Shown: in pieces, positions 137-13,813 of the stretch
Numbering within the stretch: position 1 is the stretch's first letter
Layout: the number at the start of each line of letters is the position of its first letter
Assembly (NCBI GenBank): GCA_030603495.1
Contig: JAUVXR010000043.1
Span: 1-13,813, forward strand
DNA length: 13,813 nucleotides
Source of the DNA: a bacterium
GTDB lineage: Bacteria; Armatimonadota; Zipacnadia; Zipacnadales; Zipacnadaceae
Reading direction: 5' to 3'
Notes under the pieces: generated by a model
Told to the model about the DNA's origin: nothing
The model's database searches: none
Seen by the model: the letters and a program-made list of their open reading frames with translations, nothing else
Made by a program: the position numbers and the translations under genes

Positions 137-508
137 ACACAGCACTCTCGTCCCGTCAAGGCCCGGCACATCTGGCTATCGCTTGCGTTCACAAGGATTA
201 CTAATACTGTGGTGATCAATTCGCTGGGGGCGATCGCCAAACTCTGACGCCCGCAAGCCATTAGGCAGCCAGGCCTGGCGCGAGTTCTTCCACGGCCAGT
301 GAGAGTGGTCACATTCGGCTAGCCCCTGGCTCTTACCCGCGTGGGCTAGGCCTGCCACGCCAGCCGCAGCGCCGGCGGCACTGCCACACCCCCTCCGCTA
401 CGAGCACTCCCGACAGGGTCTATTCTTCTCCGATGACGCCCTGGATCGCAATACACGGTCAGTTCCGGGGCCGCCATTCTGCCTGCTTTCGATATGAGAA
501 TGTGTAAC
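137..508. other. Intergenic region upstream of the σ54 promoter, with small dyads
   Basis: I see no convincing gene here; the minus-strand open frames over 115-657 are Arg/Ser/Ala-rich and have no family features. It holds several small symmetric elements: a perfect 12-base palindrome GCCAGGCCTGGC (268-279), a 7-bp inverted repeat CTAGCCC/GGGCTAG (319-325 and 343-349), a GCCGC/GCGGC dyad (363-379), and two related words, GGCCTGCCAC (349-358) and GGCACTGCCAC (377-387). The last two lie about 150-190 bases before the predicted σ54 start site, where enhancer-binding proteins usually bind. Some of the dyads could equally help end the upstream transcript, though none has a T-tract. A poor σ70-like pair at 183-210 was not accepted. 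Confidence 0.4.
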
Positions 509-525
509 TTGGCACGGCGCTTGCA
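509..525 (+). promoter_or_regulatory. σ54 (RpoN) -24/-12 promoter of the glycan operon
   Basis: The bases TTGGCACG-GCGC-TTGCA match the σ54 core consensus YTGGCACG-N4-TTGCW at every defined position, with the -24 GG at 511-512 and the -12 GC at 523-524, exactly 12 bases apart. Transcription would start near 535-536 and give a leader of about 120 bases before the ATG at 656. This is the only full match I found in the window, and it sits between genes, facing the operon. σ54 promoters need an ATP-driven enhancer-binding protein; neither that protein nor RpoN is encoded here. The site also bears on gene starts: it lies downstream of the ATG at 494, so a protein starting there could not come from this transcript. 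Confidence 0.75.
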
Positions 526-533
526 GTGGAGTG

Positions 534-581
534 CTACGGCAGGCCGCTGGCATACGGAGCCCCACGGCCTGCCAACTGTAG
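534..581 (+). promoter_or_regulatory. Stem-loop at the 5' end of the predicted σ54 transcript
   Basis: GGCAGGCC (538-545) and GGCCTGCC (566-573) form a perfect 8-bp stem. CTAC (534-537) and GTAG (578-581) can extend it across a four-base bulge, and GGC/GCC inside the 20-base loop can pair as well. It begins almost exactly at the predicted σ54 start site, so the mRNA would open with this hairpin about 75 bases ahead of the dehydratase start codon. It could protect the mRNA 5' end, act as an attenuator-like leader, or, as DNA, be an operator. There is no T-tract, so it is not a standard terminator. The pairing is visible; the role is inference. Confidence 0.4.
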
Positions 582-655
582 CCGAAATCGAGCCAGCGCA
601 GCCAATCCGGTCACAGAGGGCGGCACTGGCCCTGCCCGAGGACAACACGAGGACC

Positions 656-2656
656 ATGGATAACCTTCACAGCGCGTCCACAGCCGAGGACGCAGCCAAG
701 ACCATTCTCGATGAGCAAGCACGTCCTGCCACTAGGACCTCCCTTTGGCACACAATACTGACCACGCTTGAGCAGAAGATTGAGTTGCGCTACTACGTGC
801 CAGTAAAGCTGTTGACTGACGTCGTGCTGATCACGCTGGCTGCTTTATGCAGTTGGGTGGTAGTCCTGGGGCATCAAGTTACCGCCGGCAATACGCTGCT
901 CTTTGTTGCGCTGGCCCTGCTAATCCGCCTACCGCTCTATGTCCTACTGGGCATCTGGAAGTACTCGTGGAAACAAGTCGCTCCTCAGGACGTGCTGCAA
1001 CTGGCCCTCAGCGCTGTGCTGGGCGCGCCTTTTCTGGTCGCTGTTCTGTACTCCGTGCCTGAGCGGTTCCCGCCCGGCGTCCGGCCTGTCGATGTGCTGC
1101 TGACCGAGCCTGTCTACCACCTGCTGTTCCTGAGCGCAGTCCGTCTGCTCACGCGAATTGCCCAGAGGTCGAACAGCAACGGCCGCGGGCGTGTTCTGAT
1201 AGTAGGAGCAGGAGCTAGTGGCAGGGCCCTGGGTTACTTGCTGGAGGAGGCGGGCGACCAGTACACAGTGGTCGGCTATGTGGATGACGACCCCCGCAAG
1301 CGCGGTTCACGGCTACGCGGACGCACCGTGCTGGGCAAGATTGAGGATGCGCCTCGTGTAGCCCAGGAGCGGGGCGCCGAGCTGATCGTAATCGCCATTC
1401 CCTCTGCTACTCCCGAGCGACTACGCGAGGTATTAGCGACCCTGGAATCCACGGGCCTGCCTGTGCGGACTGTACCGTCATTGGCGGAGGTGATCACCCG
1501 CCGAGCACAACTGGACGACCTGCGTGAACTCAGCATGGAAGACCTCCTGCAGCGAGAGAGCGTTCCGCTCGACCGCCTACCCGTCTCGGACTATCTACGG
1601 GGCAAGACCGTCTTGGTCACCGGCGGCGGCGGCTCCATTGGCCGCCAATTGTGCAAGGAGGTGGTGAAAGCTGCTGCGGCACGTCTGCTGGTACTGGGCC
1701 GCGGAGAGAACAGTGTGTTTGAATCAATTATGGAGTTACAGGAGCTCGATGGGAACTGCGAAGTGATTCCGGTCATCTGCTGTGTCAAGGACCGTCGCAG
1801 CCTGGAGCGGGTGCTCCAGCGGTTCGCCCCGCAGGTGGTCTTTCACGCAGCGGCGCATAAGCATGTTCCGCTTATGGAGATGTACCCGGCGGAGGCCATC
1901 AATAACAACGTCATCGGCACCCTCAATCTGGTGGAACTGGCCGTGCAGTACGACGTGGAACGGCTCGTGCTGGTCTCCACCGATAAGGCCGTCAACCCGG
2001 TCAATGTCATGGGCGCTAGCAAGCGGGTCGCCGAGCTACTCGTGCAGGCCTATGCGGAGAAAACCGGCACCAATATGGTTAGCGTGCGCTTCGGTAATGT
2101 CCTGGGCAGCCGGGGCAGTGTGGTGCCCATAATGACACGACAGATCCAACAGCGGCGGCCCGTCACGGTCACCGACCCCGAGATGGTACGCTACTTTATG
2201 ACCATCCCCGAGGCAGTGCAGCTAATCCTTCAGGCCGGCACTAACGGCGGAGGCGGCGAGAGCTACATCCTGAAGATGGGCCGCCCCGTGCGGATCATGG
2301 ACCTGGCTCGTGACCTCATCCGGCTGGCCGGACTAACGCCCCACGTGGACATTCCCATCGAGATCATCGGCCCCCGCCCCGGTGAGAAGCGCACCGAAGA
2401 TCTCTTCACCCACATAGAAAACGAATGCGTACAAGCCAACGAGTACTTCTACACAGTCCCCTCACAGCGGATCAACCTGGAGACGTTGCTCCTGGATATC
2501 GAACAGCTCCGCCAGGCGGCAGAAGACGACGACCGCGAACGGATCCTAGAGCTCCTGCAAAGACTGATTCCCGATTTCGCCCCCATCGCCTCTACGACAG
2601 TGGCTGAAGTGGCTGGCGTCGAGCAGGCGGAGATCCGAACGGGCACTGATGGCTAA
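656..2656 (+). CDS. Membrane-anchored NDP-sugar 4,6-dehydratase (PglF/WbpM/CapD type)
   Basis: Predicted to oxidise, dehydrate and re-reduce a UDP-HexNAc, probably UDP-GlcNAc, to the 4-keto-6-deoxy sugar at the inner face of the membrane. From the ATG at 656 the protein has 666 residues. About four membrane segments lie between residues 50 and 166. A first Rossmann domain follows (GAGASG, 184-189), then the catalytic SDR domain with TGGGGSIG (322-329). The active-site stretch STDKAVNPVNVMGASK (441-456) has Met452 and Lys456 in a MxxxK arrangement: Met replaces the usual Tyr, as in PglF and WbpM. The frame is open back to an ATG at 494, but those 54 extra residues have no family features and would begin upstream of the σ54 promoter, so I reject that start. 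GAGG lies only three bases before ATG 656, so the ribosome site is weak. First gene of the operon; 62 bases to the next. Confidence 0.92.
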   Translation: MDNLHSASTAEDAAKTILDEQARPATRTSLWHTILTTLEQKIELRYYVPVKLLTDVVLITLAALCSWVVVLGHQVTAGNTLLFVALALLIRLPLYVLLGIWKYSWKQVAPQDVLQLALSAVLGAPFLVAVLYSVPERFPPGVRPVDVLLTEPVYHLLFLSAVRLLTRIAQRSNSNGRGRVLIVGAGASGRALGYLLEEAGDQYTVVGYVDDDPRKRGSRLRGRTVLGKIEDAPRVAQERGAELIVIAIPSATPERLREVLATLESTGLPVRTVPSLAEVITRRAQLDDLRELSMEDLLQRESVPLDRLPVSDYLRGKTVLVTGGGGSIGRQLCKEVVKAAAARLLVLGRGENSVFESIMELQELDGNCEVIPVICCVKDRRSLERVLQRFAPQVVFHAAAHKHVPLMEMYPAEAINNNVIGTLNLVELAVQYDVERLVLVSTDKAVNPVNVMGASKRVAELLVQAYAEKTGTNMVSVRFGNVLGSRGSVVPIMTRQIQQRRPVTVTDPEMVRYFMTIPEAVQLILQAGTNGGGGESYILKMGRPVRIMDLARDLIRLAGLTPHVDIPIEIIGPRPGEKRTEDLFTHIENECVQANEYFYTVPSQRINLETLLLDIEQLRQAAEDDDRERILELLQRLIPDFAPIASTTVAEVAGVEQAEIRTGTDG

Positions 2657-2718: not shown

Positions 2719-3309
2719 ATGTATCGCAAGGGAGGCAAACGCCTCTTTGATTTTGGGGCCGCCCTGGTGGGCCTGCTAATCCTGGCAGTACCGATGGGAA
2801 TCGTTGCCCTTGCGGCATGGCTAACCTCGGGCCGTCCGGTACTGTTCGTGCAGGACAGAGTCGGGATCGGCGGGCGGATCTTTCGGGTGAGGAAGTTTCG
2901 GACTATGCACATCCGCAGGACACCAGACAGCCCGGTCACTGTTTACGCAGACGAGCGCCTGACACCAACGGGTCGCGTACTCCGCAGGTATAAGCTGGAC
3001 GAATTGCCCCAGTTATGGAACGTCCTTGTCGGGGAGATGAGTTTCGTGGGGCCTCGCCCTGATGTACCCGGGTATGCGGATAAGCTCGTAGGTGAAGACC
3101 GTCGTCTGCTCTCGTTGCGCCCGGGAATCACCGGACCGGCAACACTGATCTACCGAAACGAAGAAGAGATGCTGGCACGGGTAGACGATCCAGTCAAGTA
3201 CAACGACGAAGTGATCTACCCGGACAAGGTCCGCTTGAACCTTGGGTATTTGAAAGAATGTTCCTTCACCAGAGATCTGCACTACATTTGGCGTACGATT
3301 CTCCCATAA
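2719..3309 (+). CDS. Monotopic phosphoglycosyl transferase (PglC-like priming sugar transferase)
   Basis: Transfers a sugar phosphate from a UDP-sugar to polyprenyl phosphate, the first membrane-committed step of glycan assembly. At 196 residues it is the minimal catalytic form, without the extra membrane domain of WcaJ/WbaP enzymes. One N-terminal hydrophobic stretch (about 11-36) fits a re-entrant membrane helix. Family motifs are complete: KFRTM (59-63), the Asp94-Glu95 catalytic pair in KLDELPQLWNVL, SFVGPRPD (108-115) and RPGITGPA (134-141). Asp-Glu attacks through a covalent phosphosugar intermediate in this family. The start is fixed by GAGGT at 2709-2713, five bases before the ATG, and by an in-frame stop just upstream. 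Placed between a dehydratase and an aminotransferase, it probably uses their 4-amino-6-deoxysugar product. The next gene starts one base after its stop. Confidence 0.94.
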   Translation: MYRKGGKRLFDFGAALVGLLILAVPMGIVALAAWLTSGRPVLFVQDRVGIGGRIFRVRKFRTMHIRRTPDSPVTVYADERLTPTGRVLRRYKLDELPQLWNVLVGEMSFVGPRPDVPGYADKLVGEDRRLLSLRPGITGPATLIYRNEEEMLARVDDPVKYNDEVIYPDKVRLNLGYLKECSFTRDLHYIWRTILP

Positions 3310-3310
3310 C

Positions 3311-4507
3311 ATGATGATTCCACTGTCCCGACCCTGCCTGGTTGAGCAGGACGTAGAAAAGGTGCTCGAAGTGCTGCGGACGCCACGGCTGTCGCTTGGG
3401 CCCCAATTGCTGGAGTTCGAGCAGAAGATGGCCGAATACGCAGGCTGCCAGTACGCCGTAGGGGTAAACTCCGGTACCAGCGCTCTGCACCTGATTGTTC
3501 GGGCTCTGGGCATAGGGGAGGGAGACGAGGTCATCACCACTCCCTTCAGCTTCGTGGCCTCCGCTAACTGCATACTTCTGGAACGGGCTCGGCCGGTCTT
3601 CGTGGACATTGACCCCGTTAGCCTGAATATTGACGCAAACCGCATCGAGGCAGCGATCACCCCGCATACCAAGGCCATTCTGGCAGTCGATGTTTTCGGA
3701 TGTCCCGCTGATTGGAATCGCCTGCGGGAGATAGCTCACCACCACGGCCTGGTGCTGATTGAGGATAGCTGCGAAGCGCTGGGCGCGCGGTACCGGCTTG
3801 CCGACGGCACCTGGGCCATGGCGGGAGCGCTGGGCGAGGCGGGGTGCTTCGCATTCTACCCCAACAAGCAGATTACCACCGGTGAGGGCGGCATCATCGT
3901 CACCGACCGCGAGGATCTGGCCAGCCTGTGCCGCAGTATGCGCAACCAGGGGCGCGATGAAGGGGCTGGCTGGCTGCAGCACACACGCCTCGGTTTCAAC
4001 TACCGTTTATCGGATATCAACTGCGCGTTGGGCATCAGCCAAATGACGCGCATTGACGAAATTCTGGCGGCGCGGCGCCGGGTAGCACAGTGGTACGGTG
4101 AGGCCCTGGCTGACTTGTCCGAGGTCGCAACGCCGCAGGAGCCGTCCGACGTCCAGATCAGCTGGTTCGTCTATGTGGTTAGACTATCGGAGGTCCACAC
4201 TCGGGAGAGCCGCGACGCCATCCTTACAGACCTGCGCTGCCAGGGAATCGGCTGCGCCGACTATTTCACGCCCATTCACCTGCAACCGTACATGCGCGAG
4301 ATGTTCGGCTTCCGCGAGGGCGACTTCCCCATCACCGAGAGCGTTTCGGCGCGGACCCTTGCGTTGCCCTTCTACAATGGCTTGAACCAGGATCAGATAG
4401 GGGACGTGGTCGCAGCACTACGCGAGACACTGGCCAGGAGAAGCTTGCCGCGACATGACCGGAGTCCTGGTGGGTCTGGGGGTAGCAGCCCTGGTGGTCA
4501 GGCGTGA
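3311..4507 (+). CDS. DegT/DnrJ/EryC1/StrS-type PLP sugar aminotransferase
   Basis: Predicted to transfer an amino group, usually from glutamate, to the 4-keto-6-deoxy sugar made by the upstream dehydratase, as PglE does in bacillosamine synthesis. The 398-residue chain has the family landmarks: SGTSALH (54-60) for phosphate binding, VDVFGCPAD (126-134), IEDSCEALGA (150-159) with the Asp that contacts the PLP nitrogen, and FYPNKQITTGEGG (182-194) with Lys186 as the Schiff-base lysine. Start is ATG 3311 or the adjacent ATG 3314; the preceding stop is one base upstream and there is no clear Shine-Dalgarno, so translational coupling is likely. The fold should end near residue 375; the last 20-odd residues (SLPRHDRSPGGSGGSSPGGQ and one more) are low-complexity and overlap a small ORF in another frame, so the true C-terminus is uncertain. 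Confidence 0.92.
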   Translation: MMIPLSRPCLVEQDVEKVLEVLRTPRLSLGPQLLEFEQKMAEYAGCQYAVGVNSGTSALHLIVRALGIGEGDEVITTPFSFVASANCILLERARPVFVDIDPVSLNIDANRIEAAITPHTKAILAVDVFGCPADWNRLREIAHHHGLVLIEDSCEALGARYRLADGTWAMAGALGEAGCFAFYPNKQITTGEGGIIVTDREDLASLCRSMRNQGRDEGAGWLQHTRLGFNYRLSDINCALGISQMTRIDEILAARRRVAQWYGEALADLSEVATPQEPSDVQISWFVYVVRLSEVHTRESRDAILTDLRCQGIGCADYFTPIHLQPYMREMFGFREGDFPITESVSARTLALPFYNGLNQDQIGDVVAALRETLARRSLPRHDRSPGGSGGSSPGGQA

Positions 4508-4586
4508 GGGAAGGCAGCTGCGGCTATCCAGCGATGGCAACACAGTTGAACTGCGCCGTGGCACTGAGACACAGGCGGTGAGATGA
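4455..4586 (+). CDS. Possible 43-residue membrane microprotein overlapping both neighbours
   Basis: An ATG at 4455 opens a 43-codon frame that overlaps the last 53 bases of the aminotransferase in another frame and ends with a TGA (4584-4586) overlapping the ATG of the kinase gene (4583), an ATGA-type junction typical of translational coupling. The product begins MTGVLVGLGVAALVVRREGR, a short hydrophobic helix followed by a positive charge, then continues with a polar Arg/Ser/Glu stretch. AGGAG at 4436-4440 is a good Shine-Dalgarno sequence but lies 14 bases away, longer than usual. Third positions are about 65% G/C, similar to neighbouring genes. No family is recognised. It may be a real small membrane protein, a coupling ORF, or chance. 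Confidence 0.35.
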   Translation: MTGVLVGLGVAALVVRREGRQLRLSSDGNTVELRRGTETQAVR

Positions 4587-5692
4587 TGATCACCAAGTGG
4601 GTGGGAGCGCGGGTGGGCATAATGGGGAATCCCTCCGACGGTTTTGGCGGGAAAACCATTGCCTGTCTCATCCGTAACTTTGGAGCAACTGTTACGGTGC
4701 GCGAGAATAAGACCATCGAAATTGTGCGTCACGCCCAGTTCGATCCGCTCAGTTTTGCGGACCTCACGCATCTCGCGGATCTGGCTTCACAAGATGGATA
4801 CTACGGCGGCATCCGTCTGCTATTTGCTGCCTGCAAGCGATTTAGCGATGCCTGTCGAGAATACGGGGTGGTCCTCCCGGAGCGCAACTTCGTCCTACAA
4901 TACGATACCACCGTCCCCCGCCAGGTCGGTCTGGGGGGCTCTAGTGCCATAATCACGGCGACCTTTCGGGCACTGATGGAGTTCTATGGCGTGACCGAAG
5001 AGGCACTGCCTCAGCCGATCCTACCCAGTCTGATCCTAACAGTGGAAACTGATGAGCTGGGCATCGCCGCCGGCCTGCAGGACCGCGTGGTTCAGGTCTA
5101 CGGTGGCCTGGTGGATATGGACTTCGACCCCAATTACGTGGCGGTTCATGGCCACGGACGTTATGAGCGCCTCGATTCGGAGTTGCTCCCGCCGATGCTT
5201 CTGGCCTGGGACAGATGTTGGTTGGATTCGGGTAAGATCCACAGCACGGTGCGGCACCGCTTCAATGAGGGCGATCCAGAAGTACATTCGGCGATGCACA
5301 CCTGGGCTGACTATGCCACACAAGCGCGCCAGGCTATGGAACACCGTGATTGGGCGAGCCTGGCCAAGCTGTTGAACCTCAACTTCGACCTGCGCAGGTG
5401 TATATACGGCGAAGAATGCATCGGCGAGCGTAACTTGCTGATGATTGACACACTGCGCTCGCTGGGCCTTCCCGCGAAGTTTGCCGGATCGGGAGGCGCG
5501 GTTGTGGGCTTCTCGGAAGACCCCGAGCAACTGGCAGTGGCGCGAGATGCACTGGCAGATGAAGGCTTTCAGTTCACTACGCTGACCTGTGCTGATTATG
5601 ATACTCACGCCAGCCCTATGGTGATAGCGGACACCAGCAAGGCCAGCCCAACAATAGAAGTGGACCGGGAGGATTATTCTCGTGCTGCATAG
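4583..5692 (+). CDS. GHMP-family sugar kinase, glucuronokinase-like
   Basis: Predicted ATP-dependent kinase that phosphorylates a free sugar at the anomeric carbon; the best motif match I know is glucuronokinase, which makes glucuronate 1-phosphate. The 369 residues carry GNPSDGFGGKT (15-25) near the N-terminus, the ATP-binding GHMP loop PRQVGLGGSSA (112-122) followed by a small-residue helix, and the C-terminal GSGGA motif (302-306). GNPSDG plus PRQVGLGGSSA is the pairing that points to the glucuronokinase branch; heptose and galactose kinases usually differ there. Start is ATG 4583 or the adjacent ATG 4586, overlapping the small ORF's stop. As last gene of the glycan operon it may supply a sugar 1-phosphate for another NDP-sugar, but no matching pyrophosphorylase is in the window, so the substrate is open. 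Confidence 0.83.
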   Translation: MMITKWVGARVGIMGNPSDGFGGKTIACLIRNFGATVTVRENKTIEIVRHAQFDPLSFADLTHLADLASQDGYYGGIRLLFAACKRFSDACREYGVVLPERNFVLQYDTTVPRQVGLGGSSAIITATFRALMEFYGVTEEALPQPILPSLILTVETDELGIAAGLQDRVVQVYGGLVDMDFDPNYVAVHGHGRYERLDSELLPPMLLAWDRCWLDSGKIHSTVRHRFNEGDPEVHSAMHTWADYATQARQAMEHRDWASLAKLLNLNFDLRRCIYGEECIGERNLLMIDTLRSLGLPAKFAGSGGAVVGFSEDPEQLAVARDALADEGFQFTTLTCADYDTHASPMVIADTSKASPTIEVDREDYSRAA

Positions 5693-6025: not shown

Positions 6026-6046
6026 TCACATGAGCCGATGGGCTAG
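5846..6046 (+). pseudogene. Weak open stretch, possible gene remnant
   Basis: After an in-frame TAG at 5843-5845, 66 codons stay open to a TAG at 6044-6046, overlapping the 3' end of fliA on the other strand. There is no ATG near its beginning. The reading includes FFCRYAQCPCPVRLRPNF and then AYKGAKSRKHAQRTEL; the FCRYAxCP piece recalls the N-terminal cysteine motif of some transposases I remember from Chloroflexota and related genomes, but the match does not continue. It may be debris of an insertion sequence or simply chance in GC-rich DNA. Confidence 0.18.
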
Positions 6047-6742
6047 GCAACCGTGCAGACGGCTGATTGCCTGGGCGTGTATCTGGCAGACGCGAGACTC
6101 GGTCACGCCGAGCACTTCGCCGATCTCGCGCAGCGTCAACTCCTCCTGGTAATAGAGCGCGATGACGTGCTTCTCCCGCTCGGGCAGTTCCTCGATGGCT
6201 TTCGCGATCATCTGTTGCAGTTCGGCCTGCTCGAGGGTCCGGGTGGGATTATCGTAGTGTCTTGCGCTTTGGCCTGGCTGGACTGGCTCGGTGGCAAGAT
6301 GGGGCTGGGTTTCCATAAGCTGGTCGAGCGAGAGGATCGTCGTGCCGCTGATCTTGCCCAGGATTTCCTGATACTGCTCGGTATCCATCTGGAGGGCCTC
6401 AGCGATCTCGTCGTCATCGGGTGGATAGCCGAGTTGGGCCTCTAGCTCCCCGATGGTCTCAGCAATCTGCCGGGCCTGCCGCCGCAGTACCCGGGGAGCC
6501 CAATCGCGCGCCCGCAGACACTCCATGACCTCCCCCCGGATGACAGTGCTAGCATACGTGTCAAACTTGACGCCCCGTGCGACATCGAACCGGTCAACTG
6601 CCTTAATCAGGCCGATTATTCCGGCGCTGAATAGGTCCTCACGGTCTACGCTGGCCGGCAAGGTTGCCGTGACGCGCCCCACGATATAGTGCACTAGATT
6701 GACATGGTCTTCGATTAGCCTGTTGCGCTGCTCTTGGTTCAT
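6026..6742 (-). CDS. fliA: FliA/WhiG-type sigma factor (σ28, flagellar)
   Basis: Predicted alternative sigma factor that directs RNA polymerase to late flagellar promoters. The 238 residues have normal FliA length. Region 2 spans about residues 12-80, with VNLVHYIVGRV, DREDLFSAGIIGLIKAVDRFD and KFDTYASTVIRGEVMECLR; the PRVLRRQAR start of region 3 follows (83-91); region 4 is about 186-230, with the helix-turn-helix LTLREIGEVLGVTESRVCQI (202-221). ATG start at 6742, 48 bases after the flhA stop on the same strand, with only a weak GGCGG ahead of it, so it is probably read on the flhA transcript. Pairing with flhA favours a flagellar role over sporulation (WhiG) or general stress. No anti-sigma factor FlgM is in the window. 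Confidence 0.9.
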   Translation of the reverse strand: MNQEQRNRLIEDHVNLVHYIVGRVTATLPASVDREDLFSAGIIGLIKAVDRFDVARGVKFDTYASTVIRGEVMECLRARDWAPRVLRRQARQIAETIGELEAQLGYPPDDDEIAEALQMDTEQYQEILGKISGTTILSLDQLMETQPHLATEPVQPGQSARHYDNPTRTLEQAELQQMIAKAIEELPEREKHVIALYYQEELTLREIGEVLGVTESRVCQIHAQAISRLHGCLAHRLM

Positions 6743-6790: not shown

Positions 6791-8836
6791 CTATTCAGTC
6801 GCTCCACCCAACTCCTCAGTGACTATGGTGTGCACGTTCTCAATTTGGGGCTCCCCGCCAATTTCGTTGGGCTCAAGCACCACCAACGCCGGCACCAGCG
6901 ACCGGGCGAGTTCTCCCAGACCGGCGCGGATCTCAGCACTGCACAGCAGCACCAGCGGCCGGTCTACTCGCCGATGGCGTGCCACTAACGTCTCGAGCAG
7001 GTGGCGCCACCGCTCCGCCTCATCCGGGTCTAGCACCGGTGGCGTCGCCTTGGGCTGGTGCCGACTCGCTGCCAGTAGCTCCTGTTCCACCTGCGGCCCT
7101 AGGGTTATTGCACGAATCGTGCCATCTGGCGCGATAGCTTGGGTAGTGGCGGGTGCCATCGCCTGCCGCGTCATTGCCACCAGCGCTGCGGGAGCGGCAG
7201 CCTGGGCCAAACCTGTGGTCAACACCTCGACGAGGGCCACCCTGTCAGTCAGCGCCAGCCCCTGGCTGAGCAGTTCACGGCCCACTCCCACGAGAGTGGC
7301 CGGCGTCAATCCGGCGGACCGCGCTTCGGCTACCGTTGCCCCGTGCGTCTGGGCGAGCTGGTCGAGCAGCTCACTGGCTCGCTCCGTATCGAATAGGTCG
7401 GCTGCGTGCTTGCGCAGCACCCAGGTCAAGTGGGCAACCAGGGCTTCCTCCGGCTGGAGTAACTTGAGGGCATCTCCTGAAATGTGGCCCCCTTCGTCTG
7501 GTCTAACCCACTTGCCATATCGGCCGTCGGGCAGCTCAACCAAAACTCCTTCTTCGGGCAGCATCTCCGGCTGGTCGGCGACCGCCAGCTGACGGGCAGG
7601 CCGCAGCCGCCCAGTGTCCAGAATAATGCCGCGGACTACGAAGGCATACTGGTCGAAATCGAGCTTTTCCGAATCGCGGACAATCAAGGCGGGCAGGCCG
7701 AATCCTAACTGCTCGGATAGCTCGCGGCGCACTCGGGCCAATTGATTCAGCAGCGACGCGGCGTCGTCGCTCAGCAAGTCCAATAGCCCCCAGCCTAGTT
7801 GCAATTGCGGTCCAGTGGCAACTGTCGCAGCCCCCTCCGCAACTGGCTGGGGGTGTGCGTGGGCGGGAGCTTCCCGCTGAGCTCCCCGCACGGCAATAAG
7901 CCAGCCCCATATCCCCAGACCAGCGGCGACGAACAGCAGGGGCAATTTGGCCACTCCGGGCACCAGCGCCAGCAGTAGGCAAGCTATGGCTACGCCCAGC
8001 ACCGCTACGGGACTGCCGAAGAACTGCCGGCCGGCCTCAGCCGTCAGGTCGGACGTCGAACTAGCTCGGGCCACCATTATCGCTGCGGCTGCCCCGACCA
8101 GCAAAGCCGGCACCAGTATTATCAAGCCGTGGCCGGCTACCGTCAGCGCCAGATTTTCCCAGGCGCTGCCCCCCAGGCCCGCCGCGCCCAGTCTCACCAG
8201 GGGCGTCAGGACGACTATAGCCACCACCGCAATGGTCTCGCCCCGCAGGAAGCGGGCGGCGCCGTCCATTGCGCCGTAGAAGTTAGCTTCGCGTTCCAGA
8301 TGGGCCACCGCGTCTTCGGTCTCGAGGCTAGCCTCTGCTTTGGTGCGTGCTCTTGTCTCCAGCGCGAGCTGCTTGCCGGGCAGAGCGTCGAGGGCGAAAC
8401 GGGCGGCGACTTCGGCAATACGGGTTACGCCAGCGGTCACGACCACGAACTGCACGACTGCCAGAGTAATCAGGCTTCCCAAGCTAGCGACCGGGTTATT
8501 AAAGCCGGCGACCGCAGCGAGCGTCATGGTAAGTTGCCCCGCCTGGCCCAGGGCGACGATAAGTCGGGCCACCGCTAGAGCCAGCAAGAGTCGTGCCAGG
8601 CTGGAAAGGACGATTATGCTAGGTAGAGTGGTGAGCTCGACCGGCCGGGGGGTGAGGACGGCCACCAGGAGCAGTCCGGTAGCGCCGGCCAGGTTGGCAG
8701 CTAGCAGCAGGTCCACCACCAACGCCGGCAGCGGCACCATCAATAAGATAAGCGCCCCCACTGCGCACGCCACCGCCACGCCGGTGGAGATCACTGCGCT
8801 ATATGGCGATTCAAAGGTGCTCCGGCCTGAAGACAC
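6791..8836 (-). CDS. flhA: Flagellar type III export gate protein FlhA
   Basis: FlhA forms the ring-shaped export gate of the flagellar secretion apparatus; its membrane part couples ion flow to export and its cytoplasmic ring docks substrate-chaperone complexes. The protein has 681 residues, standard for the FHIPEP family. Hydrophobic helices fill about residues 15-330. The FHIPEP loop is recognisable: VTRIAEVAARFALDALPGKQ (137-156) and NFYGAMDGAARFLRGE (185-200). The soluble domain occupies roughly 340-681. Start is GTG 8836, supported by a strong Shine-Dalgarno. Oddity: the segment after PGKQ reads LALETRARTK in place of the usual MxIDADLNAG, at the same length. The adjacent σ28 gene argues for a flagellar rather than virulence (SctV) role. 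flhB and other export genes are not adjacent. Confidence 0.93.
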   Translation of the reverse strand: MSSGRSTFESPYSAVISTGVAVACAVGALILLMVPLPALVVDLLLAANLAGATGLLLVAVLTPRPVELTTLPSIIVLSSLARLLLALAVARLIVALGQAGQLTMTLAAVAGFNNPVASLGSLITLAVVQFVVVTAGVTRIAEVAARFALDALPGKQLALETRARTKAEASLETEDAVAHLEREANFYGAMDGAARFLRGETIAVVAIVVLTPLVRLGAAGLGGSAWENLALTVAGHGLIILVPALLVGAAAAIMVARASSTSDLTAEAGRQFFGSPVAVLGVAIACLLLALVPGVAKLPLLFVAAGLGIWGWLIAVRGAQREAPAHAHPQPVAEGAATVATGPQLQLGWGLLDLLSDDAASLLNQLARVRRELSEQLGFGLPALIVRDSEKLDFDQYAFVVRGIILDTGRLRPARQLAVADQPEMLPEEGVLVELPDGRYGKWVRPDEGGHISGDALKLLQPEEALVAHLTWVLRKHAADLFDTERASELLDQLAQTHGATVAEARSAGLTPATLVGVGRELLSQGLALTDRVALVEVLTTGLAQAAAPAALVAMTRQAMAPATTQAIAPDGTIRAITLGPQVEQELLAASRHQPKATPPVLDPDEAERWRHLLETLVARHRRVDRPLVLLCSAEIRAGLGELARSLVPALVVLEPNEIGGEPQIENVHTIVTEELGGATE

Positions 8837-8897: not shown

Positions 8898-11800
8898 CTA
8901 CTCAATGGGCCAGGCCGGGATGATTTGGTCAATCTCCTCCATTAGCTGCCGCGTCTCGCGCAGGGCCAGAACGATCCCCTGGTAATGCTTAATATCATCA
9001 TAGCTTAGGGGCCGGCCCAGCTTTTTGATGGTGCGGTCTTTGAGCCACTTCTGGCAGACCTGGTAGCCGCCGATCTGGAATTCCCACACCTCCGGCTCGA
9101 CCCCAGCGAAGTACTGCTTCTTATTGATGTAAACCCGCTCTTTCGGTACGACAGGCGTCTCGCCTGTCGCTTCTCGGTCGGAGGGGACAGGCGGGACGCC
9201 TGTCCTACCACCCGTCTCCTCTACATACCTCACCTTCTCCACCTCGTTGGAGCCGGGGATGTTGAATGCGGGTGCATCGCCGAGCTCGCCGGCCTCGCGC
9301 AGCAGGTGCAGGTCGGCCAGGCGCTCCCCCTTCTCGACCAGCTTGGCGAACAGTTCGCGGTCCGAGGTCAGCGGCAGGCGGGGGAAGTTAATCTTGAGGC
9401 ACTCGGCATAGCGCTCGCGGTAGGTGGGCGAGTGGAAGACGGCATAGGCATAGTAGAAGATGTCCTCCGGGCCGAAGGTCTTAGCCAGGTCGCCCTGCCC
9501 ATCGGGGATGAACTCCAGCCCCAGCTTCGCGGACAACTCCTTGACAAAGTCGGGATTGAGATTGGGCCGCCGCTTCTCCTCGGTCGTTCCCGGCTCGGGG
9601 TAGAGGTAAAGAGGGAAGACTTGGGCGACGCCCCTGTTGCTAACAAAGACTCTGCATTCCACCAACTGAGTCGCCACAAAGAAGTAACAATAGCCGCAGT
9701 GGTACGCATATTGACGCATGCCACATAACGCCAGGTTGTTGCCTGCCAACATGTGCTGCATGACCTTATCAGCTGGTCGGCTCGTCAGTTGTGGGTGATA
9801 GTAGAGGTGTCGCGTATCAAAGGGGCGATACACGCACGGCTCGATGTTGCTCTCGTCGAACGTTGTCCCATCACGTCTCGCCTCTACATCGTAGCTGGAA
9901 CTGGGTCGGACGTTGTATTTCTCCACGAAGTCCTCGTCATAGCTCGCAGCATAGAGCTGTCTCATGCGATCGACAAGGCGGTGCTTGTGGAGATCAAAGA
10001 ACAAAGCGTCACGATCCGTTTTCAAGCCGCTTTGGTGAACGGTGAAAACATCTGCCACTGAACGAAAGCTATCGTACTCTTCTGCAAGCGACAGATCCTT
10101 TGGAACGAAGAAGTAGAAGTCCTCCGTTGGCACGAGCGCCTGCCAGTCCGTTCCATCGCAGTCCTCTGTCTCTAGTGCTTCATACTTCGTTTCGCGGTGC
10201 CCCCAAGCCTCGGCATAGTTGACTTCGGGGAGGGTGGTCTTGCCTCGCTTGGCAAACAGCGCGATGGCAACGCCCTGCTGAATATCGAATACATTCTCGT
10301 CCGGGCTGCCATCCGGTGCAGTTTCGCCTATTCTGGCATTCCCGTGAAGGTTGTAAACGTAGATTTCATCAAAACTCTCAAGCAACGACTCTCTCATGCG
10401 TCTGTGGGTCAGTCCGTCGAGATAGGAGTTGTTGGTGATCATCCCCACGATGCCTTGTTCTGTCCGATCAATGCGCCACTGCGCAAATCTTATGAACTTT
10501 ATGTAGTCGTCATCTATGTTGATCTTCTTCTCGTGCAGCCCCCGCTTGTAGTCTTCGATCTGAGCAAGAATCCAGTCACTTCTGTTGGCAGAGCTGATAG
10601 AATAGGGTGGATTGCCGAGGACGACCATAATTCTCTCTTTGCGCTTGATGTCAGCGGCAGCGTTAGCCTCCTCGGCGATGGCAAGGCCCAATCCGAAGCC
10701 CATCAGTGTATCGGTAACCTTGATGGCCTCCTCCAGCGTGTTGGTAAGATAGATGCCGAGGCGCTCGTCGCCGGAGAAGTCGTAGCCCAGGTCCCGCAAC
10801 TGGATCGCCAGCTTCATATGGGCGATGGTGTAGGGAGCCATCAGCAGCTCGAAACCGAAGATACGCGGGAGTAGCTTGCTCTTGACGTAGTCGGGCCACA
10901 CCCCAGCCAGGCCCGCTTCCTGCATGTTCTGGTGAATCTGCTCAATGACGAAGTACAAGAATGTGCCCGTACCGCAGGCGGGGTCGAGGATGTAGACCTT
11001 ATCATCGGCCAGGCCCAGCGGCTTGTCGAACTTCTCCTTGAGCAGGTGGTCAATGGAGCGGACGATGTAAGAGACGACCGGCTCGGGGGTATAGTAGACG
11101 CCGCGGGCTTTGCGCTTGGCGGGATCGTAGGCGCGCAGGAAGTCCTCGTAGAAGTGGACCACCGGGTCTTCGCGGCCAGGCTTGCGAGCGAAGTCGGCGG
11201 CAATCTGGCTCATATCGGCGCAGTTGAGCAGCTCGGCAATGTCATTGGCGATCCACTCAAGCGACCTGTCGAGGGAGGGGCCAGCGATCTGGTTGAAGAG
11301 CTGGCGGAGAAAGGGATTGGTGGGAGGGACGTAGGCGGCGGCCTTATCGCGAGCGAACTCGGCACCCGGCTGGCGGCGACGCAGCTCAAAACAGGAACTG
11401 AACAGCCCGTAGGCCACCGTCTGGGCGTACATATCGGCGAACTGGTCGGCGTCGAGGTCATGAATGAGCGTCTCGCGGAAGGCTTGGTGCAGAGCATGGA
11501 GCGAGCCAAGCTCGCCCTCCTGCGAAAGCACCCGCTGCGCATTATCCCGCAATTGCTTCGCCTTGGCCGCCATATACCGGGCCAGTTCCTGGGCGGTGCC
11601 GACCGCAATCGGCTCGGCGGAGAAGAAGCCCTCCAGAAGCTCCTGTACCTGCACGACGCCGTCACTATCGCGCTTGACGTCACTGCGATCCGACGTCAAG
11701 CGGCCCAGGCGCTCCGCCCGGCACAGCTCACCTTCCCGATACCAGCGAAACTCCAGGTAGTCGGTGAGGATGAAGTTAGGGAATGCGGGCAGGTAGCGCT

Positions 11801-12059
11801 TGAGCTGCTCAGTGCGCTCTACGTCGTCCAGTTTAGCGCCAATATCCTTGCACTCGATGTAGCCAAGAGCGGCAGCGCCACGCCTGATGATGAAGTCCGG
11901 TGCGCCGACATCGGTGATATGCTTGGGTTCGTTAGTGGCGGTGATACCCTCGCCAGTTTGCTCCAGCAGCGTCTTGAGCGCTGGACGGTGGGTATGTTCG
12001 GTGGCGTCGCCGAGCCGAAGGTGCTTGCGCAATTCTTTGAGATACTGGGTGAAAGGCAT
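8898..12059 (-). CDS. Single-chain restriction-modification enzyme, type ISP/IIG-like, without helicase
   Basis: Predicted to methylate adenine in a specific DNA site and cut unmodified DNA, all in one 1053-residue protein. An N-terminal PD-(D/E)xK nuclease is suggested by PDF (Asp55) and YIECK (Glu69, Lys71). A helical coupler follows (about 140-310). The N6-adenine methyltransferase has GVYYTPEPVV (320-329), DPACGTGTF (359-367, SAM binding) and the catalytic NPPY (483-486). The last 400 or so residues resemble the type ISP specificity region, with RPFDTRHLYYHP, YRERYAECLKINFPR and EFQIGGYQVCQKWLKDR. Classical type ISP enzymes also carry a DEAD-type helicase between nuclease and methyltransferase; none is present, so a type IIG-like cutter is likelier. 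A palindromic repeat adds about 22 residues near 950-972. Alone in its class here: no separate S or R subunit. Confidence 0.88.
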   Translation of the reverse strand: MPFTQYLKELRKHLRLGDATEHTHRPALKTLLEQTGEGITATNEPKHITDVGAPDFIIRRGAAALGYIECKDIGAKLDDVERTEQLKRYLPAFPNFILTDYLEFRWYREGELCRAERLGRLTSDRSDVKRDSDGVVQVQELLEGFFSAEPIAVGTAQELARYMAAKAKQLRDNAQRVLSQEGELGSLHALHQAFRETLIHDLDADQFADMYAQTVAYGLFSSCFELRRRQPGAEFARDKAAAYVPPTNPFLRQLFNQIAGPSLDRSLEWIANDIAELLNCADMSQIAADFARKPGREDPVVHFYEDFLRAYDPAKRKARGVYYTPEPVVSYIVRSIDHLLKEKFDKPLGLADDKVYILDPACGTGTFLYFVIEQIHQNMQEAGLAGVWPDYVKSKLLPRIFGFELLMAPYTIAHMKLAIQLRDLGYDFSGDERLGIYLTNTLEEAIKVTDTLMGFGLGLAIAEEANAAADIKRKERIMVVLGNPPYSISSANRSDWILAQIEDYKRGLHEKKINIDDDYIKFIRFAQWRIDRTEQGIVGMITNNSYLDGLTHRRMRESLLESFDEIYVYNLHGNARIGETAPDGSPDENVFDIQQGVAIALFAKRGKTTLPEVNYAEAWGHRETKYEALETEDCDGTDWQALVPTEDFYFFVPKDLSLAEEYDSFRSVADVFTVHQSGLKTDRDALFFDLHKHRLVDRMRQLYAASYDEDFVEKYNVRPSSSYDVEARRDGTTFDESNIEPCVYRPFDTRHLYYHPQLTSRPADKVMQHMLAGNNLALCGMRQYAYHCGYCYFFVATQLVECRVFVSNRGVAQVFPLYLYPEPGTTEEKRRPNLNPDFVKELSAKLGLEFIPDGQGDLAKTFGPEDIFYYAYAVFHSPTYRERYAECLKINFPRLPLTSDRELFAKLVEKGERLADLHLLREAGELGDAPAFNIPGSNEVEKVRYVEETGGRTGVPPVPSDREATGETPVVPKERVYINKKQYFAGVEPEVWEFQIGGYQVCQKWLKDRTIKKLGRPLSYDDIKHYQGIVLALRETRQLMEEIDQIIPAWPIE
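9145..9209. repeat. Paired-hairpin palindromic repeat inserted in frame in the restriction gene
   Basis: Two near-identical perfect hairpins lie in inverted orientation: CGACAGGCG-TCT-CGCCTGTCG (9149-9169) and GGACAGGCG-GGA-CGCCTGTCC (9185-9205), each with a 9-bp stem and 3-base loop. The whole unit is bounded by GGTA (9145-9148) and TACC (9206-9209), making an imperfect palindrome of 65 bases. On the minus strand it reads in frame as TGVPPVP...TGETPVVP, breaking what should be a continuous VRYVE-TG-ERVYIN stretch of the host protein. It looks like a REP/MITE-type miniature repeat whose hairpin arms are free of stop codons in this frame. Confidence 0.82.
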
Positions 12060-12279: not shown

Positions 12280-12687
12280 TCAGAGTGCCACCTCCATCGC
12301 CCGTGGAGGGCAGGCGGGGACGCACAGCTCGCAGGCGATGCACTTATCCGAGTCGAACAGCACCTCCTGCGTGGCTATGTGCTTGTAGAGTGCTCCCGTT
12401 GGGCAGATGGTCACACAGGCCCCGCAGTGAGTACATTCTTGCTCGTTGCGCACTACGTCCTTTTCCAAGGGCTGGACGGCTACCCCCTGCTTCTGCACCC
12501 AGGATAGCGCCCGCTCGATGTCGTCCTCGGCACCCTCGAGTCCGAGCACCATCACGCCCTCGGATTGAGGCGTGATGTTGGCACGCAGTATGTTGAACTC
12601 CAGGTTGTATTTGCTCACTATCTGTGAAACCACCGGCGAATCAATGAGCTGCCGGGGATAATGGAACACTACGCGACGTGTTGCCAT
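12280..12687 (-). CDS. NIL-domain / 2[4Fe-4S] ferredoxin protein for homocysteine synthesis
   Basis: Partner of the DUF39 protein in making homocysteine from aspartate semialdehyde and sulfide; it probably provides the electrons for the reductive sulfur insertion. The 135 residues have an N-terminal NIL domain (about 3-75, beginning VVFHYPRQLIDSPVVSQI) and a ferredoxin domain with two complete cluster motifs: Cys85, 88, 91 and 95 (CTHCGACVTICP) and Cys116, 119, 122 and 126 (CIACELCVPACP). The ATG follows the DUF39 stop codon with no spacing, and its GGAGGTG ribosome site (12694-12700) lies inside the last codons of that gene, so the two are translationally linked. The archaeal counterpart is MA1822 of Methanosarcina. 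Other NIL-ferredoxins exist beside methionine transport genes, but the DUF39 neighbour settles the role. Confidence 0.92.
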   Translation of the reverse strand: MATRRVVFHYPRQLIDSPVVSQIVSKYNLEFNILRANITPQSEGVMVLGLEGAEDDIERALSWVQKQGVAVQPLEKDVVRNEQECTHCGACVTICPTGALYKHIATQEVLFDSDKCIACELCVPACPPRAMEVAL

Positions 12688-13813
12688 CTATACCACCTCC
12701 GTGTGAACCGGTCGGTCGGGCAGCGGCTTAAAGGTCAGTCCGGAATCGGCTGAAGGCAACAGCTCGGCTGGCTCGCTGAGCAAGAAATGGCCGGTCGCGA
12801 TCCAGTCTTTGAGGATATCGGCAATCTCGCGCGCCTTCGGATAGCTAGACAAAGACCCCGTCGGCACTTCTTTGCCATTGACCGTTATGCTGCCACTCTT
12901 CAACTGCTTGTAATTGACGTGCCCCAGGGGCCCGCCCTCGCTGTACGGATAGCGGCGGCTGTAGTCGGTAATTGGGGCGACAAGGTCCTCATCCTTGACT
13001 GCCGTGAAGCGTGCCATTTCCTCATCCAGTACCGGAATGGCTGCTCCCAGGCCCATCTGTAACGAGACCCCGTAGCCATACATGCTGACGCCAACAACCC
13101 ACTCGGCGCTCATCTGCTTCATGTCGCCGACCACCGATAGGGTCCCGGCACCACCCTTGGGCACGCCCTTCTCGGTGCGCGCCACGGTGGGATTATGCTG
13201 GGTGCCCTGCCAGAATACATAGCCAGGGGCACCACCCAGAAAGATGCGGCTGCCTATCCCCAGGGTGCGGTAGTACGGGTCATTCAGCAGAGGGCTGAGT
13301 TGCCCCGCCGAGCAATAGTTGGCATTGCCCAGATCTGCCTTGAGCACGCCCATGTAGGTGTATATGTCGCGCTCAGAGTCGAGGTTCACCGCCACATTGT
13401 AGTTCTGGTAGGCGTTGCGAGGATTGCACAGGAAGCACTCATTCAGATCCTCGATGTTTATCCACGTATCCAGCTCCTTGCGTGGGTAGCAGTTAGTACC
13501 GTAGGCAGTGGCCCTCAGTCGCACATCCTGGCCCGCAATCAGCTCCTCGATTACGTGCCCCCCGCCATAAGCGAACTCGCCGGGATGATCCTGGTTAAGC
13601 GGGTCCTGCTCGCTCATCTCCGTGGCCCCGATGTAGAGGTCCACAGCCGCCAGACCGGCGTAAGCCGGTACATCGTTAAGCCACGCCTTCTGCATCTTGA
13701 TACGAGGATTGGCGTGGCCGGTGTTGATGAATGCTCCTGACGAGCACATTGGGCCAAAAGTTCCGGTAGTCACTACGTCCACCTGTTCGGCGGCCTTAGC
13801 GGCTCCCTCCTCT
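12688..13813 (-). CDS. DUF39 (COG1900) L-aspartate semialdehyde sulfurtransferase, 5' end outside window
   Basis: Predicted catalytic component of the non-classical homocysteine route, converting aspartate semialdehyde directly to homocysteine without O-acyl-homoserine intermediates; the archaeal reference is MA1821. The frame is open to the edge of the window, so a GTG at 13782 is an internal Val codon, not a start: EEGAAKAAEQVDVVTTGTFG reads straight through. Seen family stretches include GTFGPMCSSGAFINTGH, ATAYGTNCYPRKE, a CFLCNPRNAYQNYNVAVN segment, and GGAPGYVFWQGTQHNP. Conserved cysteines, in particular the one in CSSG, are candidates for carrying sulfur as a persulfide. The stop TAG abuts the start of the NIL/ferredoxin gene, and the pair is the conserved two-gene arrangement. 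About 374 residues are visible. Confidence 0.93.
   Translation of the reverse strand, partial: EEGAAKAAEQVDVVTTGTFGPMCSSGAFINTGHANPRIKMQKAWLNDVPAYAGLAAVDLYIGATEMSEQDPLNQDHPGEFAYGGGHVIEELIAGQDVRLRATAYGTNCYPRKELDTWINIEDLNECFLCNPRNAYQNYNVAVNLDSERDIYTYMGVLKADLGNANYCSAGQLSPLLNDPYYRTLGIGSRIFLGGAPGYVFWQGTQHNPTVARTEKGVPKGGAGTLSVVGDMKQMSAEWVVGVSMYGYGVSLQMGLGAAIPVLDEEMARFTAVKDEDLVAPITDYSRRYPYSEGGPLGHVNYKQLKSGSITVNGKEVPTGSLSSYPKAREIADILKDWIATGHFLLSEPAELLPSADSGLTFKPLPDRPVHTEVV

Follow-up and report, generated by a model that had tools for sequence, protein, structure and literature searches.

A candidate sigma-54 promoter in front of a glycan-priming operon in an uncultured Armatimonadota lineage

Introduction

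Does the fully consensus-matching -24/-12 motif that faces a four-gene glycan operon in an uncultured Armatimonadota bacterium act as a sigma-54 promoter, and if so, what does it serve? The DNA in question, here called the window, is a 13,813-nucleotide stretch that forms contig C56 of the metagenome-assembled genome G000 (2.67 Mb, 93.5% complete). An initial annotation of the window proposed enhancer-dependent control of amino-sugar priming, and suggested that the glycan might be coordinated with motility or used for flagellin glycosylation. We have re-examined these proposals by comparison with other genomes of the genus and family, and statements made here about G000 as a whole are based on pattern and family searches together with selected stretches.

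Results

The site and its setting

The sequence TTGGCACGGCGCTTGCA on the forward strand of the window fits YTGGCACGRNNNTTGCW, the sigma-54 consensus, at all informative positions, with 10 bases between its GG and its GC (Table 1). Some 130 bp ahead of ATG656, where the first gene starts, it faces the operon on the same strand, within a gap of 519 bp that begins after the stop of the upstream same-strand gene at 136. A long open reading frame (494-2656, from ATG494) covers the site. Similarity to the closest orthologues of the first operon gene (L013 and L014) starts only downstream of ATG656, and the site is therefore best read as non-coding, with 494-655 as leader; the likely starts of these orthologues are at the corresponding place, and an AGGA ribosome-binding motif precedes ATG656. 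The complete core with correct GG-GC spacing, in a non-coding and operon-facing position, as originally described, is thus borne out.

Table 1. Features of the window bearing on the candidate promoter
Feature	Position	Strand	Remarks
Non-coding gap	137..655	+	would have to hold any enhancer
Sigma-54 (-24/-12) promoter candidate	509..525	+	TTGGCACG-GCGC-TTGCA; GG 511-512, GC 523-524
Predicted transcription start	535..536	+	inferred from usual distance to -12 GC
Perfect 9-bp inverted repeat	538..573	+	GGCAGGCCG/CGGCCTGCC; directly after predicted start
FlaA1/PglF/CapD-type membrane nucleotide-sugar 4,6-dehydratase	656..2656	+	CoA_binding_3 + Polysacc_synt_2
Small polyprenyl-phosphate phosphoglycosyltransferase, PglC-like, priming enzyme	2719..3309	+	Bac_transf
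DegT/PseC/PglE-type PLP aminotransferase	3311..4507	+	family match
GHMP-family sugar kinase	4583..5692	+	family match
FliA/WhiG-family sigma factor	6026..6742	-	partner of FlhA-like gene; outside glycan operon
Divergent FlhA (FHIPEP)	6791..8836	-	outside glycan operon
Second perfect sigma-54 core	8583..8598	-	inside flhA-like coding sequence

In 20,000 dinucleotide shuffles of the forward strand of 137-655, the strict motif was never obtained and the relaxed motif TGGCAYRNNNNTTGCW was obtained 10 times. By extrapolation from shuffles of the window, approximately 0.13 strict and 2.7 relaxed sites would be expected per 2.67-Mb genome. The relaxed motif in fact occurs 9 times in the genome, as against 2 for a reversed control; many of the 9 sites lie within genes, so that the excess cannot consist entirely of promoters. 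The other perfect cores in the genome were each considered as promoters and set aside: those on C5 and C45 lie within genes, that on C44 is antisense in a gene, and that on C7 falls in a gap that lacks a good candidate gene close downstream. The second perfect core of the window (8584-8598, minus strand) was rejected as a coding coincidence, as it lies within the flhA-like frame and the motif recurs at the corresponding position of the flhA-like copy in the relative G001 (L042). That a perfect core is found within coding sequence of this very window means that the core alone is no proof of a promoter.

The inverted repeat that follows the predicted start could form a 5' hairpin or be an operator, and the complete leader shows no unusual degree of folding (z -0.9). 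Searches of the window and two orthologous loci with Rfam gave no match. A low-power comparison of 137-655 with the intergenic sigma-54-like site of the genome's activator gene, described below, revealed no shared dyad and no common word of at least 9 bases.

The operon and its predicted product

All four operon genes are on the forward strand, separated from one another by 62, 1 and 75 bases. Judged by their families, they appear suited to making a 4-amino-4,6-dideoxy sugar nucleotide and loading it on a lipid carrier. At the family level only, a PglF-type dehydratase, a PglE-type aminotransferase and a PglC-type transferase are found together, and three of the four genes thus belong to enzyme families of the Campylobacter Pgl pathway, in which PglF is the dehydratase, PglE the aminotransferase and PglC the phosphoglycosyltransferase. 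In contrast to that pathway, none of the four operon proteins has a PglD-type acetyltransferase domain, and the operon has an extra GHMP kinase and the sigma-54 promoter candidate in front. Further along the window comes the gene for a large type ISP-like restriction-modification protein (8898-12059; N6 methylase and Type_ISP_C), with the flhA-like gene on one side and a NIL/ferredoxin and homocysteine-biosynthesis pair (12280-13812) on the other.

RpoN and its activator

The initial annotation had named a genomic search for rpoN and for an activator near the operon as checks of its proposal. An rpoN gene is present on C39, where it is open at the contig end, and its sigma-54 DNA-binding domain is matched with an E value of 1.7e-36. 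PF00158 matches in four places in the genome, of which one, on C9, is strong (E 2.4e-66); the three weak matches are read as other AAA+ proteins. The C9 protein is an NtrC-type activator, with receiver, AAA+ and C-terminal helix-turn-helix domains. Both rpoN and the activator gene are on contigs other than that of the operon, and the expected proximity of activator and operon is therefore not seen in this assembly. An intergenic sigma-54-like site (TGGCATACATGTTGCT) is located approximately 290 bp upstream of the activator gene itself. The activator loop reads GAFTSA rather than GAFTGA, as it does in all eight aligned NtrC-type activators of the family (L230 2159-3523, L234, L235, L236, L237, L239, L194 and L195); the activator sequences from G003, G007 and G010 stop before the C-terminal helix-turn-helix. 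Assignment of the C9 activator as PrsR was considered and rejected, with a score of 334 bits, under the TIGR02915 cut-off of 502.6.

Sigma-54 sites elsewhere in the genus

In each of four relatives (G002, G003, G004 and G006), a polysaccharide-export gene is preceded by TGGCRCRGAAATTGCA, placed exactly at -127 relative to its called start, and in G005 by TGGCACGATTATTGCT at -179. An alignment of these export-gene promoters shows conservation of the core together with a short segment that directly follows it; the upstream flanks are poorly alignable and show no clear enhancer block. The orthologous export gene of G000 is without the sigma-54 site that its relatives have. G004 (L176) retains the -127 site, and rpoN and an NtrC-type activator are undetected in this 93%-complete genome. 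In G003, and for two copies in G002, a larger export gene of Wza-like type is preceded at approximately 215 bp by a second candidate set, AGGMACRRAAGTTGCA; the same sequence is at the matching place in G006, and the GG has been lost from a third copy in G002.

In G003, in G006 and twice in G002, the genes for RpoN and the activator lie at a short distance from each other. In both G002 copies and in G006, the Wza-like export gene followed by the phosphoglycosyltransferase gene is on one contig with rpoN and the activator gene; the G003 genes are split between two contigs, one with rpoN and the activator gene and one with the export and transferase genes. At three of these loci, L234 (G006:C37), L235 (G002:C211) and L236 (G002:C89), rpoN is located between the phosphoglycosyltransferase and activator genes, within a polysaccharide cluster. 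The flagellated relative G001 has sigma-54 sites before two flagellar genes, namely flgB, which comes just after rpoN, and the canonical flhA. From these sites before export and flagellar genes, sigma-54 in the genus appears to serve surface polysaccharide and, where present, flagella.

Conservation of the site itself

None of the other 14 genomes of the family gave a match to the DNA of 100-720, and no orthologue of the dehydratase was found in the other six genomes of the genus, in which the best matches are approximately 30% identical over part of the protein. Orthologues that are 62-65% identical are present in G009 (L013) and G014 (L014). Both lack a sigma-54 site upstream, and the G009 orthologue has instead a TTGATA-N17-TATAAT sigma-70 promoter (L013 1162-1190) approximately 225 bp before its start. 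Loss of the -24/-12 bases in close relatives had been named as an observation that would refute the promoter, and the bases are indeed absent upstream of these closest orthologues; however, neither rpoN nor an NtrC-type activator was found in G009 or G014, and so the loss is uninformative on use of the site in G000. The pattern fits an exchange of promoter type. Among the relatives examined, none was found with both the first gene of the operon and rpoN. More widely, a site scoring at least 11/12 was found upstream of 0 of 73 homologous dehydratase genes in public genomes, which indicates that such matches are rare by chance.

The neighbouring flagellar-type genes

Coordination of the operon with motility, or a role in flagellin glycosylation, is not supported by our data. 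The rod and hook proteins of PF00460 gave no matches in the 93.5%-complete G000, and across the 15 family genomes they were detected only in G001 (6), G007 (5) and G010 (5). The FlhA in the window is the only FlhA of G000 and is divergent; with its FliA/WhiG sigma partner it is convergent with the operon and does not share its promoter. The FlhA and sigma genes occur together in G001, G004, G005, G006 and G011, and the pair is also kept in relatives without rod and hook proteins and in relatives without the glycan operon. Elsewhere in G000 (C21, L241 8521-12782), genes for a histidine kinase, FliO, FliP, FliQ, FliR and FlhB form a run, and G006 (C50, L242 8883-14441) has the same export-gate set plus a FliN-like gene. 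The FlhB protein is short (240-245 amino acids), with a profile match that ends at 238 of 335 in G000, and most of its cytoplasmic switch domain therefore appears to be missing. In G006, which has no detectable rod or hook genes, a sigma-54 site (TGGCATGGATATTGCA; L242:14585, minus strand) lies 144 bp before the histidine kinase gene that is followed by fliN-fliO-fliP-fliQ-fliR-flhB. By the PF00460 search of an incomplete genome, G000 has an export gate without detectable rod or hook, and a working flagellum is unlikely. Flagellar structures have been reported for the class Zipacnadia in MAGs from one site (PMC10290634), and flagella are thus patchy in the group.

Discussion

We consider it probable, at approximately 0.65, that the site in front of the operon is a functional sigma-54 promoter that switches on glycan priming once it is opened by the genome's one activator, that of C9. 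Sigma-54 control is plausible because rpoN and one activator are present in the genome, because export genes of the genus carry such sites, and because rpoN and activator genes lie beside glycan genes in relatives; it would probably be exerted via the genome's single activator. In such a scheme, RNA polymerase containing RpoN would bind 509-525 as a closed complex, which a phosphorylated NtrC-type activator, most likely that encoded on C9, would remodel to give a transcript from approximately 535-536. The genes for the dehydratase, the phosphoglycosyltransferase, the aminotransferase and the kinase would all be on this transcript, presumably a single one. Their products would synthesise an amino-deoxy sugar and transfer it to a lipid carrier, thereby initiating a surface polysaccharide. 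We infer both that the site is used and that the C9 activator acts there. For the enhancer-dependent control that was originally proposed, the evidence is indirect, consisting of rpoN, the activator and the export-gene sites of relatives. Counting against our account are the lack of any recognised enhancer, the failure to trace the site through relatives, the location of rpoN and the activator gene on other contigs, the missing site at the G000 export gene, the retained site in G004 with rpoN undetected, and the perfect cores that fall within genes of G000.

The match could alternatively be due to chance, with the operon driven by a sigma-70-type promoter that escaped a strict scan, or by read-through from the gene ending at 136. 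The consensus sigma-70 promoter of the G009 orthologue, which is without a sigma-54 site, is in agreement with such an arrangement, as are the positions of other perfect cores of G000 within genes and the failure of the site to be kept across species. Against this, the strict motif is expected in the gap less than once in 20,000, the strict consensus scan found no sigma-70-like site on the forward strand of 1-655, and read-through would have 519 bp to cross. The comparison with G009 also loses much of its force, as this organism, in which rpoN and an NtrC-type activator were not found, could not use a sigma-54 promoter. We hold a chance match, the main alternative, to be unlikely.

Two other accounts accept that RpoN binds the site and differ in the consequence, and both seem to us very improbable. 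The promoter might tie the glycan to flagella, by flagellin glycosylation or coordination with motility, as would be in keeping with the sigma-54 sites before flgB and canonical flhA in G001 and before the histidine kinase and fliN-to-flhB gene set in G006. This is difficult to reconcile with a genome of this completeness that has no detected PF00460 proteins and whose only FlhA is a divergent paralogue, encoded with its sigma partner in a convergent pair that does not share the operon's promoter and is kept in relatives without the operon. RpoN-polymerase might instead bind without an activator and interfere, as a roadblock or competitor, with another promoter of the operon; a full consensus core is expected to bind RpoN tightly, and no enhancer site has been recognised. 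Such a role fits poorly with the existence of an activator in the genome and with the sites of relatives, which are at ordinary promoter positions before polysaccharide genes.

A functional sigma-54 promoter, as we favour, would resemble several described systems. Haft et al. 2006 reportedly predicted PrsK/PrsR for PEP-CTERM systems, and the dehydratase orthologue of G009 comes after an exosortase gene and before export genes. The present case differs from PrsR/PEP-CTERM systems in that the C9 activator falls under the PrsR cut-off and no exosortase is encoded in the window. In Aquincola, an RpoN promoter similarly serves an exopolysaccharide-linked gene, a PEP-CTERM gene, and RpoN control apparently does not extend to the genes of polysaccharide biosynthesis (PMC9850573); in the window, in contrast, the biosynthesis operon itself is the candidate RpoN target. 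Control of exopolysaccharide and motility by NtrC and RpoN is reported for Burkholderia cenocepacia (PMC5491218), and the likeness is in polysaccharide as a target of sigma-54 and an NtrC activator; this organism is a proteobacterium with nitrogen control and motility, unlike G000, with its single activator and no rod or hook genes found.

More generally, sigma-54 promoters precede exopolysaccharide, LPS and flagellar genes (Francke et al. 2011, PMC3162934), and the sigma-54 pattern of the genus fits this general picture. The window shares with these systems the -24/-12 core, RpoN with an NtrC-type activator, and a target in biosynthesis of the cell exterior. It differs in that the target is an amino-deoxy-sugar priming operon of an uncultured Armatimonadota, known from sequence and with no recognised enhancer. 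The locus thus probably adds a new case, from this uncultured lineage, to a well-described type of control.

These results would probably extend sigma-54 control of the cell exterior to this lineage, and provide a single-activator, single-sigma system for surface glycan that is open to test. They also correct the view that the genes neighbouring the operon make a flagellum. We tentatively suggest, as a possibility we would rate below even odds, that in this genus RpoN and its single activator, which appear tied to flagellar genes in flagellated relatives, have become dedicated to surface polysaccharide after loss of the flagellum, with the operon in the window a later recruit. If this is true, the keeping of sigma-54 for polysaccharide after flagellum loss would bear on the persistence of rpoN in non-motile bacteria.
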